From Gammaproteobacteria bacterium UBA6968 (GTDB lineage: Bacteria > Pseudomonadota > Gammaproteobacteria > Pseudomonadales > Azotimanducaceae), in the NCBI GenBank assembly GCA_002450255.1, contig DJYW01000023.1, positions 1-15,417 on the forward strand: a DNA stretch of 15,417 bases, written 5' to 3'. The position numbers and the translations under genes are program-made. Numbering within the stretch: the first letter of the stretch is position 1; each line of letters opens with the position of its first letter. The notes below the pieces were generated by a model, which was not told where the DNA came from, made no database searches, and worked only from the letters and a program-made list of their open reading frames with translations. Positions 7,383 to 9,764 of this stretch are shown one piece after another.

Positions 7383-7790
7383 TCAGGTCTGTGTCCGCCA
7401 GGCGGTGAGGACAAGCATTGCCCAACCGAAAATGAGCAGGCCACCACCAATTGGCGTAATCGGACCGAATATTGGACCGATTATCGAAGCAGGGAACAGC
7501 GCCAGCAGATAGAGACTCCCACTGAAGCACAACACACCGGCAACGAATACGTACACAACGAATCGGGCTGGTCCTGTGCCGGTAGTCCTTTGCCAGAGAC
7601 CGATTATCAGTAAGACAAGCGCATGCATAACGTGGTACCGCCAAGCGATTTCCCAGGTACTTTCTCCTTGGCCCGATAACGTGTTGTCTAAGGCGTGGGC
7701 GCCAAGTGCGCCGAGGAGAACCGCAAGGAGGCCATAAAGGCCGCCACTGACCAATGCGATTTTACTCGCCGCTATTGCTGAAGAGGTCAA
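7383..7790 (-). CDS. DUF423 (YgdD-like) small membrane protein
   Basis: A 135-residue inner-membrane protein of the DUF423 family (E. coli YgdD), function unknown. Four hydrophobic segments are visible at about 11-33, 53-67, 77-99 and 111-131. Family landmarks are LGALGAHAL (26-34), RYHVMHAL (51-58), FSGSLYLLAL (89-98) and ITPIGGG (111-117). The start is a TTG at 7790; no ATG exists before the first membrane helix, and upstream the frame runs into rpoH, so a TTG start 13 bases after the rpoH stop is the best choice, although its Shine-Dalgarno is poor. No terminator-like structure fits into the 13 bases, so it is likely transcribed with rpoH, and trmB follows after 14 bases. Conserved placement after rpoH occurs in pseudomonads too, as far as I recall. 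Confidence 0.85.
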   Translation of the reverse strand: MTSSAIAASKIALVSGGLYGLLAVLLGALGAHALDNTLSGQGESTWEIAWRYHVMHALVLLIIGLWQRTTGTGPARFVVYVFVAGVLCFSGSLYLLALFPASIIGPIFGPITPIGGGLLIFGWAMLVLTAWRTQT

Positions 7791-7803
7791 ACCAAGCCCG
7801 CGG

Positions 7804-8652
7804 CTAGGCGACGATCGCTTGTTTCAACTTTTTCATCGCATTTTTTTCTAGCTGACGAATGCGTTCGGCACTGACGCCATACTCTGCAGCCAGCTGGTGT
7901 AGGGTCGATTTATCATCGCTCAGCCAACGCTGCTGCAATATGTCTCTGCTACGCTCGTCTAAACCAGCAAGGCCGGCGCTAAGACGTAAGCTAACATCTT
8001 GTTCGGCGTCTTCAGCGGCGACTAAATCAGCAGGGTCTGGTGCAGACGAGGCTAGGAAATGCGCGGGCGCTGCCCCCGCTTCATCATCATCTGTATAGCC
8101 ATCGAATGCCATATCGTTAGAGCTTAGACGCCCTTCCATACGCGTGACTTCAGCAGCTGAGACGCCTAAATCGTCTGCAATCGCTTGGGTTTCGTCCTGC
8201 GACAACCAAGACAGAGAGCGTTTTGCGCTACGTAAATTAAAGAACAGTTTGCGCTGTGCCTTGGTGGTTGCCACCTTTACGATGCGCCAGTTACGTAAAA
8301 TGTACTCGTGCATTTCGGCCTTAATCCAATGCACCGCAAAAGAAATCAGCCGAACGCCCACATTTGGGTCAAAACGCTTAACAGCCTTCATCAGGCCCAC
8401 ATTCCCTTCCTGAATCAGGTCGGCCTGCGGCAACCCATATCCTTGGTAAGAACGCGCAAGATGAACTACAAAGCGCAGGTGGCAAAGCACCAGTTCTCTT
8501 GCGGCATTGAGATCGCCATCGTCAAAAAAGCGTTCAGACAACGCTTTCTCGTGCTCGGGCTTTAAGATAGGAAATTGCCCGATGGTCCGAAGATAGGCAT
8601 CGAGATCTTGGCCGGGCGCAATGCTCGGCAACGTCATTACATTTGTGCTCAT
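7804..8652 (-). CDS. rpoH: heat-shock sigma factor sigma-32
   Basis: A 282-residue group 3 sigma-70-family factor directing RNA polymerase to heat-shock promoters. Region 2 spans about 50-125 with HLRFVVHLARSYQGYGLPQ, DLIQEGNVGLMKAVKRFDP and the region 2.4 helix ending RNWRIVK; the diagnostic RpoH box QRKLFFNLR is at 133-141; region 4 with its helix-turn-helix (LHQLAAEYGVSAERIRQLEKNAM) closes the protein. Length matches the family (about 284). ATG 8652 has CCGGAAG about 6-7 bases upstream on the minus strand. The only strong promoter signal in front coincides with a perfect CIRCE operator (8683-8709), leaving a predicted leader of only about 20 bases. Upstream is ftsX (134-base gap), the usual neighbour; downstream are the DUF423 gene and trmB. 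Confidence 0.98.
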   Translation of the reverse strand: MSTNVMTLPSIAPGQDLDAYLRTIGQFPILKPEHEKALSERFFDDGDLNAARELVLCHLRFVVHLARSYQGYGLPQADLIQEGNVGLMKAVKRFDPNVGVRLISFAVHWIKAEMHEYILRNWRIVKVATTKAQRKLFFNLRSAKRSLSWLSQDETQAIADDLGVSAAEVTRMEGRLSSNDMAFDGYTDDDEAGAAPAHFLASSAPDPADLVAAEDAEQDVSLRLSAGLAGLDERSRDILQQRWLSDDKSTLHQLAAEYGVSAERIRQLEKNAMKKLKQAIVA

Positions 8653-8679
8653 GTGATACTTCCGGTAACACTTTCAATT

Positions 8680-8709
8680 ATTTTAGCACTCCCTACCTTA
8701 GAGTGCTAA
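8680..8709 (-). promoter_or_regulatory. sigma-70-type promoter of rpoH, overlapped by CIRCE
   Basis: On the minus strand, TTAGCA (8709-8704, 4 of 6 to TTGACA) and TAAAAT (8685-8680, 5 of 6 to TATAAT) are separated by 18 bases. The -35 is the upstream CIRCE arm and the -10 begins in the downstream arm, so HrcA would block polymerase. Predicted initiation near 8673 gives a leader of about 20 bases with the rpoH ribosome-binding site. Confidence 0.65.
8683..8709. promoter_or_regulatory. CIRCE operator (HrcA site) before rpoH
   Basis: TTAGCACTC (8683-8691), nine bases, then GAGTGCTAA (8701-8709) matches the CIRCE consensus TTAGCACTC-N9-GAGTGCTAA at all 18 arm positions with the exact spacing. 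CIRCE is the binding site of HrcA, the repressor whose activity depends on the GroEL chaperonin, and is best known before groESL and hrcA-grpE-dnaK operons. Here it lies 31-57 bases ahead of the rpoH start codon and covers the predicted -35 and -10. The motif is seen directly; repression of rpoH by HrcA is inference, and no hrcA gene is in this window. Confidence 0.93.
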
Positions 8710-8786
8710 TAAAAAAGATAGATGAAAACAGAACGTTAGTTGCGATAAGTCATCGATAGAGGAAAGAGGATCAGAAACTTTTGAAG

Positions 8787-9764
8787 TTAGGCGCTTTCTA
8801 AATCGCGTATTCGTTGAGAGGCCGCTAGACGCGCACCAAATACCCCTAATGCTCCGCCGACCAGCAAAAGTCTGCCCAGAAACTCAGCATCAAACCCAAC
8901 CACCCTGAGGGGCACTTGATAACTGCCTAACAGAGTTTCCAGCGGCTGCTCTATCACGCTGAGTGCCAAGGCCAGCAACATTGCTGCGATAACCGCACCG
9001 CCAAGCCCATAAAACGCTCCAAAGTAAAGAAATGGACGCCGAATTTGACGCGGCGTTGCCCCAACCAAATGGAGCACTCTTAGCTCTTCTAATCTGGCCT
9101 CAATCGCAAGGCGAACAGATGCTCCGGTCACTAAAACAGCGGCAACACCGAATAAAACAGCCAGGAGAGCACCAAGCCGCTGAACAATTTGGGTCATATC
9201 CCGCAACCGCTCTAGCCAGGTACGTTCCAGCACTGCTTCATCGACATGCACATGCCGCGAATACTGCGCCTGTAATCGATCAAGCTCGCCCAGTTCACCT
9301 TCGGTCTTGATCATAACTTTGATGGACGCGGGTAAAGGGTTATCGTCAATCAATGCCAAAGCACTCCGAATCACATCCGTTTGCGACCCTTCGGCAAGGA
9401 ATTCCTGCAATGCCTCATCTGCCGACTTGAGTGATAACTTATCCACCACCGGATCCTCTGCCAACGTCGCACGCACTTCATCAATCACTGCTGCAGGTGT
9501 CGCCGGAACAAAATAAATCGTCATACCGAGGCGCCCTTGCCAATCAGCGCCAAGCACTTGCATATTCATTTGGACTAGCCTGAGCCCGCCTGGCAACGCC
9601 AGCGCTATGCCAACCAAAAGCCAAACGACCATGCTAGTGCCCAAGCGCTGGCTGACGAAACTGGCAGTTTCAGCAAGCGTGCGGGCGTGATCGCGCAGCC
9701 AGCTACGCAAGGACCAGTCTCGCTCACCAATTAACTGCTCCCATGCACTAGGACGCTTACTCAC
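8787..9764 (-). CDS. ftsX: cell-division protein FtsX
   Basis: A 325-residue inner-membrane subunit of the FtsEX complex, which couples ATP hydrolysis at the septum to activation of peptidoglycan hydrolases through a periplasmic loop. Layout: cytoplasmic N-terminus of about 43 residues, TM1 (about 44-66), a periplasmic domain (about 67-190) with the family block DDNPLPASIKV (140-150), TM2 (about 193-215), the cytoplasmic coupling segment ELRVLHLVGATPRQIRRPF (start 227), TM3 (about 246-270), and TM4 (about 296-315). The start is GTG 9764: AGGA (9772-9775) lies 7 bases ahead, whereas the nearby ATG reads into a stop. The ftsE stop is 36 bases upstream. The C-terminus is followed by the rpoH promoter region with no evident terminator. 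Confidence 0.96.
   Translation of the reverse strand: MSKRPSAWEQLIGERDWSLRSWLRDHARTLAETASFVSQRLGTSMVVWLLVGIALALPGGLRLVQMNMQVLGADWQGRLGMTIYFVPATPAAVIDEVRATLAEDPVVDKLSLKSADEALQEFLAEGSQTDVIRSALALIDDNPLPASIKVMIKTEGELGELDRLQAQYSRHVHVDEAVLERTWLERLRDMTQIVQRLGALLAVLFGVAAVLVTGASVRLAIEARLEELRVLHLVGATPRQIRRPFLYFGAFYGLGGAVIAAMLLALALSVIEQPLETLLGSYQVPLRVVGFDAEFLGRLLLVGGALGVFGARLAASQRIRDLESA

Follow-up and report, generated by a model that had tools for sequence, protein, structure and literature searches.

The HrcA repressor and sigma-32 strategies of the heat-shock response are usually described side by side. The window, as we call the whole 15,417-nucleotide stretch of contig DJYW01000023.1 analysed here, carries a CIRCE element in front of rpoH, the gene for sigma-32, and raises the question of whether HrcA governs sigma-32 synthesis in this lineage and how widely such an arrangement is shared. 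Our analysis makes it very probable that HrcA uses this element as a functional operator at the rpoH promoter. Four sequence observations lead to this prediction: the CIRCE is perfect and its right arm also forms an extended −10; hrcA is intact; groESL carries a second CIRCE; and among relatives the site co-occurs with hrcA.

CIRCE element and sigma-70 promoter upstream of rpoH

The sequence-only reading that first pointed to this locus had described a perfect CIRCE, with all 18 arm bases and the 9-base spacing matching the consensus. This was confirmed: the element reads TTAGCACTC-N9-GAGTGCTAA with 0/18 arm-base mismatches, and nothing else in the window matches CIRCE at up to 3 mismatches (200 dinucleotide shuffles average 0.01 matches). 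The span originally given, 8680–8709, comprises the CIRCE at 8683–8709 plus the last three bases of the −10. The minus-strand ORF downstream was identified as rpoH (395 bits, cut-off 323; Table 1). It is separated from ftsX, also on the minus strand, by a gap of 134 bases, and the CIRCE lies inside this gap. The element overlaps the promoter of a heat-shock gene, rpoH, which is the location looked for in a CIRCE operator.

Table 1 Features of the rpoH upstream region in the window.
Feature	Position	Strand	Evidence
CIRCE operator, perfect 9-9-9 inverted repeat (predicted HrcA binding site)	8683..8709	−	Motif match; kept before rpoH in relatives
Weak −35-like hexamer TTAGCA (4/6), start of the left CIRCE arm	8704..8709	−	Promoter scan
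TCTAA, sigma-E −10-like pentamer from left arm and spacer	8698..8702	−	−35 partner GGAACTT absent in the window
Extended −10, TGC-TAAAAT, right CIRCE arm and three flanking bases	8680..8688	−	Promoter scan; T at +29 kept in relatives
Imperfect palindrome GTGTTACC-GGA-AGTATCAC, predicted leader up to the ATG, holding the Shine-Dalgarno-like GGAAG	8653..8671	−	Conserved in relatives
rpoH (sigma-32), 282 aa	7804..8652	−	TIGR02392
ftsX, next gene upstream, same strand as rpoH	8787..9764	−	Best match TIGR00439, 218 bits, below the cut-off of 255

A scan of 8600–8900 found a single sigma-70-like promoter, TTAGCA-18-TAAAAT on the minus strand, scoring 9/12 with TG before the −10 (shuffles gave 0.3). 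The only good sigma-70-type promoter before rpoH thus lies under the CIRCE, as had been claimed. The stretch TGC-TAAAAT fits the extended −10 rule, in which TGN precedes a TANNNT hexamer. The T at +29 from the CIRCE start is present in 86/87 rpoH sites vs 6/38 groESL sites, and a profile of the 87 rpoH sites shows that bases outside the operator are conserved, with the right arm running downstream into TGC-TAaAAT. For the −35-like TTAGCA, conservation as a promoter element cannot be told apart from conservation of the operator. Placed from the −10, the rpoH transcription start would fall near 8672–8673, in line with the earlier estimate of a leader of about 20 bases.

CIRCE sites in the genome and their conservation in relatives

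The sequence-only reading had proposed searching the genome for hrcA and for other CIRCE sites, and related genomes for the motif. The window's assembly (3.16 Mb in 187 contigs, 94% complete) contains one hrcA (PF01628, 1.2e-59; TIGR00331, 310 bits against a cut-off of 197), full length and intact and followed by ORFs recognised by eye as grpE and dnaK. E. coli, included as a control, gave no match in the HrcA search. A genome scan at up to 3 mismatches returned two perfect CIRCE elements, at rpoH and at groESL (its GroES identified by NF001527), plus a single site with 3 mismatches; a control scan with the pattern reversed likewise gave 1 match. The 3-mismatch site (G000:C109:3293-3319) lies about 120 bases upstream of a DEAD-box RNA helicase-like ORF and is at chance level. 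Upstream regions of the hrcA operon were read in 31 of the 101 hrcA-bearing genomes, the window's genome and 30 relatives, and none of the 31 carried a CIRCE (best, 7 mismatches). With two perfect elements and none at the hrcA operon, the recognisable HrcA regulon of the window's genome consists of groESL and rpoH.

We then compared 146 relatives from the genus, family and order, of which 142 had rpoH and 4 gave no match. Two were dropped, G021 because the start of its gene was missing and G112 because its place was not listed, leaving 140 rpoH upstream regions: 37 from the genus (the window's own included), 49 from the rest of the family and 54 from the rest of the order. A site was called when a CIRCE with up to 2 mismatches lay within 300 bases of the rpoH start; contamination was not filtered. 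By this measure, the site precedes rpoH in 79/96 hrcA-bearing vs 8/44 hrcA-lacking genomes (Fisher 4e-13). These counts ignore shared ancestry, an effect lessened by taking one genome at least 90% complete per family outside the window's family, which gave 12/13 hrcA-bearing vs 1/27 hrcA-lacking (3e-8). Within the genus, 35/37 members have the site with up to 2 mismatches and the other 2 have it with 3, so that it is indeed conserved in close relatives.

Exceptions occur on both sides. Among the 17/96 hrcA-bearing genomes outside the count, 10 have a site with 3–5 mismatches and 7 have none; 10 of the 17 belong to a single RpoH-tree branch of 17 members. Sixteen of the 17 members of that branch carry a second rpoH match, and 10/17 first copies are degraded or siteless; the nine second copies examined (L175–L183) have no CIRCE (6–9 mismatches). 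Of the 8 hrcA-lacking genomes that keep the site, 5 are below 90% complete and 3 are not. The remaining hrcA-lacking genomes comprise 30 with no site and 6 with degraded sites (3–5 mismatches) at the same place (G091, G123, G124, G128, G131 and G135), and the degraded copies read as operator decay after loss of the repressor.

These decayed sites bear on the idea that the element is a leftover, kept only because its right arm serves as the promoter −10. The right arm is an extended −10, as such a reading would have it, but the left arm is conserved too where hrcA is present, except for a C-to-G change at position 6. Among the degraded hrcA-lacking sites, the right half is better kept in G123 and G128 and worse kept in G091, G124 and G135, and hrcA is intact in the window's own genome. 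We consider a leftover very improbable. The same alignments allow a second reading to be weighed, in which the inverted repeat works not as a DNA operator but in the RNA, as a hairpin, terminator or attenuator within a transcript running from ftsYEX into rpoH. The repeat can pair and sits between ftsX and rpoH, and in imperfect sites 25/67 single-side changes leave a G-U pair. However, the other 42 single-side changes break the pair, against 1 paired double change, and the pair 6/20 is broken in 29/91 sites (24 G.G, 5 C.C) with 0 compensated. No terminator signal was found in 8600–8900, and the site co-occurs with hrcA. The arms are kept as sequence rather than as pairs; the RNA reading was rejected as extremely improbable, and we retain that of a DNA operator.

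The arrangement extends beyond the order. In the class, 199/274 genomes have a CIRCE with up to 1 mismatch; 30 of these sites, one per genome, lie before groES (17), rpoH (12) or hrcA (1). A follow-up of 38 of the 199 genomes, those with listed places, found rpoH in 34 and gave 30 loci, 27 of which have the site, all from genomes picked for holding a CIRCE. Thirty phylum-level sites, all from other classes, comprise 29 before groES and 1 before rpoH. The latter, in G540, is a 1-mismatch CIRCE at position 1501 of locus L324, 42 bases before an rpoH homologue (42% identity). In two gamma-proteobacterial genomes of family f71, CIRCE elements lie before groESL (G170) or hrcA-grpE (G315), not before rpoH (L270, L271, L320, L321). 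Among named rpoH loci, some from genomes shared with the order set, 22/80 have a CIRCE, including those of Alcanivorax jadensis T9, Parahaliea mediterranea, Haliea and Ketobacter; the Pseudomonas rpoH loci of this set have none. The sequence-only reading had taken HrcA control of rpoH to be unusual, a view that did not hold: the site is usual in the sampled hrcA-bearing relatives and had been predicted for Geobacter in 2004. We read CIRCE on rpoH as an apparently ancient connection common to these bacteria, not as a peculiarity of one genome.

A sigma-E-type promoter running into the operator in relatives

In relatives, a GGAACTT box starts 15–16 bases upstream of the operator, and the left arm and spacer read TCTAA. 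Compared with the sigma-E promoter consensus, the distance from GGAACTT to TCTAA is that of a sigma-E promoter. We called the −35 box at up to 2 mismatches to GGAACTT (chance about 1.3% per offset). It is present at 18/18 rpoH sites in other families of the order, 19/34 in other genera of the family, 11/35 in the genus, 20/27 at class level and 17/22 at named loci, and at 0/38 CIRCE sites before groESL. Additionally, 25/37 hrcA-lacking genomes of the order outside the family have a sigma-E promoter (total of up to 2 mismatches) before rpoH vs 8.5% of shuffles. Because such a promoter pair exists without CIRCE, the CIRCE appears to have been laid over a sigma-E/sigma-70 pair. The left arm appears to form part of the sigma-E −10, and the right arm part of the sigma-70 −10.

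The box tends to follow the sigma factor. RpoE, called by TIGR02939 above cut-off, was detected in 101/146 genomes and in 11/40 of the genus, where RseB occurs in exactly the same 11/40 members. Genus members having the RpoE-RseB pair measure 2.8 to 6 Mb, and the 29/40 in which it was not detected have 1.6–3.4 Mb assembled, several of these assemblies being incomplete. Among genomes whose site has at most 3 mismatches, 47/56 with rpoE and 4/35 without it carry the −35 box, so that 9/56 and 4/35, respectively, are exceptions; the figures are 11/11 and 2/26 in the genus, and 18/27 and 1/8 in the rest of the family.

These raw counts are not independent, owing to shared ancestry. On the RpoH tree, rpoE changes 8 times and the −35 box 9 times; independent pairs agree in 3.6 cases, disagree in 0.0 and show no difference in 2.4 (averages; sign test p 0.125). 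When a sigma-E promoter at any position within 260 bases was accepted instead, 3.6 pairs pointed in the same and 1.0 in the opposite direction (p 0.375). This is a quickly built tree, with 37/86 inner branches weak and an outgroup that is not one clade; G064, whose row failed translation, was left out. The tree-corrected test does not reach significance, the number of change events being too small, and the consistent direction gives weak support to the −35 box tracking rpoE. The C-to-G change in the left arm, which we take to give the GTC-TAA form of the sigma-E −10, is found at 23/56 rpoE-bearing vs 1/35 rpoE-lacking sites. As a sigma-E signal, this enrichment is only suggestive, because some groESL sites share the same change.

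In the genome that contains the window, neither RpoE (best TIGR02939 match 2.9e-12, below cut-off) nor RseB was detected. The absence of RpoE from a 94% complete genome is credible mainly because it also goes undetected in 28 other genus members. The window itself has no GGAACTT-type −35 about 16 bases before TCTAA. With no RpoE, RseB or −35 box found, HrcA is the only transcriptional input to rpoH that we recognised, and it is predicted to be the main one in the window's lineage. A sigma-E (AlgU)-dependent rpoH promoter, P3, is described for E. coli and P. aeruginosa in the available text of PMC8103513 and PMC13104619, and the sigma-E promoters seen before rpoH in hrcA-lacking genomes agree with it. 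Most rpoE-bearing relatives with a CIRCE before rpoH resemble this case in having a sigma-E-type −35 box there. They differ in that, where hrcA is present, the sigma-E −10 lies inside the CIRCE, and the window lacks the P3-type arrangement.

Leader palindrome, predicted circuit and known systems

The predicted leader is occupied by a 19-base imperfect palindrome. Much of the family reads GTGTTACC-GGA-GGTATCAC, where the window has GGA-AGTATCAC after the first half. The palindrome is present in 50/72 family members having a CIRCE with up to 3 mismatches (chance 0.6%), with the pattern GTTAC-N5-GTA(T/G)CA and, in most, the Shine-Dalgarno-like core. It is placed further downstream in G006. In one sub-clade, its distance to the promoter is kept and the assumed ATG lies about 60–190 bases further on; the Shine-Dalgarno-like core is changed in most members of this sub-clade. 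In a check for an RNA thermometer of the ROSE, fourU or E. coli rpoH type, no Rfam match was obtained, and pairing within the palindrome shows no excess (119/152 cells, shuffled mean 119). The palindrome is possibly an RNA thermometer, a CsrA-type site or a DNA operator; being fixed to the promoter and not to the ATG in that sub-clade, it is at least as likely to be a DNA site or 5′-end element as an RNA thermometer.

The leader matters for a further alternative, in which the operator is real and its role minor: rpoH output would depend mainly on translation, on DnaK/FtsH-dependent turnover and on ftsYEX read-through, with HrcA only trimming basal transcription. The established control of E. 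coli sigma-32 by mRNA structure and turnover counts for this alternative, as does the conserved palindrome that covers the predicted leader. Read-through from ftsX into rpoH is possible, ftsX ending 134 bases upstream on the same strand with no terminator-like site found in 8600–8900. On the other side, the leader and early coding region show no unusual folding (z −1.39), and no Rfam family matched in 7700–9000. That the site is perfect, and that it accompanies hrcA across many families, also argues for sustained selection. We therefore regard a minor role as unlikely and favour an operator that governs rpoH transcription.

With HrcA at such an operator, free GroEL would keep the repressor active and the sigma-70 promoter of rpoH would be held closed; in relatives with sigma-E, HrcA would also close the sigma-E promoter whose −10 is partly made of the left arm. 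Once misfolded protein occupies GroEL, or heat inactivates HrcA, groESL and rpoH would be released together. The new sigma-32 would then also drive groESL through that operon's own promoter, and restored GroEL would re-activate HrcA and shut rpoH again. In C. jejuni, GroE enhances HrcA binding and heat causes loss of binding, according to the accessible passages of PMC8533110.

The groESL region of the window's genome has a sigma-32-like promoter, CTTGAAA-N13-ACCTATCA, which scores 11/14 and starts 42 bases before the groESL CIRCE. This score is reached by 10/21 groESL regions vs 2.9% of shuffles. A sigma-32-like promoter directly upstream of the groESL CIRCE makes the wiring look like a feed-forward loop, and the predicted circuit would be a coherent one, with HrcA acting on rpoH and groESL and sigma-32 acting on groESL. 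The sequence-only reading had placed the HrcA circuit above that of sigma-32. HrcA over rpoH stands as a prediction, but a simple hierarchy of one above the other does not, given that groESL has its own sigma-32-like promoter. A direct loop from sigma-32 to HrcA through a sigma-32 promoter before hrcA was also considered and rejected (2/31 regions reach 11/14 vs 6.1% of shuffles).

For hrcA-bearing gamma-proteobacteria more broadly, these sequence patterns would fit a fused gate, in which the left CIRCE arm is also the sigma-E −10 and the right arm the extended −10 of sigma-70. HrcA at one operator would veto both the sigma-E (envelope-stress) and sigma-70 (housekeeping) inputs, the operator going with hrcA and the −35 box with rpoE. 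The window would represent the final stage: sigma-E has been lost and rpoH transcription is set solely by chaperonin status via HrcA, possibly with a second control at the leader palindrome. We put the chances of this wider model at about even. If true, a large share of gamma-proteobacteria would have HrcA and sigma-32 wired in series, so that the state of GroEL feeds into the synthesis of sigma-32. What is left in E. coli and Pseudomonas would then be just the sigma-E/sigma-70 portion of a promoter once held in common.

The closest known case is Geobacter sulfurreducens, for which Rodionov et al. (2004; PMC545781, Table 8) predicted a CIRCE before rpoH. That site has the same perfect TTAGCACTC-N9-GAGTGCTAA, at position −51 there and −57 here, and groESL carries a CIRCE as well; both cases are computational predictions. 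In Geobacter, hrcA-grpE-dnaK-dnaJ carries a CIRCE, whereas the hrcA operon here has none, and an overlap of CIRCE with a sigma-E promoter is not mentioned in the accessible part of PMC545781. The HrcA/CIRCE systems of Bacillus subtilis, Campylobacter and others, which act on groESL and hrcA-grpE-dnaK, share the operator sequence, the spacing and HrcA with the present one, as well as GroE as presumed co-factor (PMC8533110, accessible passages). What sets the present case apart is that HrcA would act on a gene encoding a heat-shock sigma factor, through an operator overlapping the −10 itself.

In the accessible text of PMC545781, PMC3989490, PMC13104619, PMC10696704, PMC8103513, PMC8533110, PMC10490939 and PMC2700814, a CIRCE before rpoH is reported in PMC545781 alone. 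Our search of the open-access literature found no report of a CIRCE before a gamma-proteobacterial rpoH or of a sigma-E/CIRCE overlap. What is new here is the promoter anatomy: the right arm doubles as the extended −10 and, in other families of the order, the left arm contributes to the −10 of a sigma-E-type promoter. The nearest named public RpoH sequences (78–82% identity) come from uncultured gamma-proteobacteria, including a K189A-clade genome; we take these bacteria to be marine.
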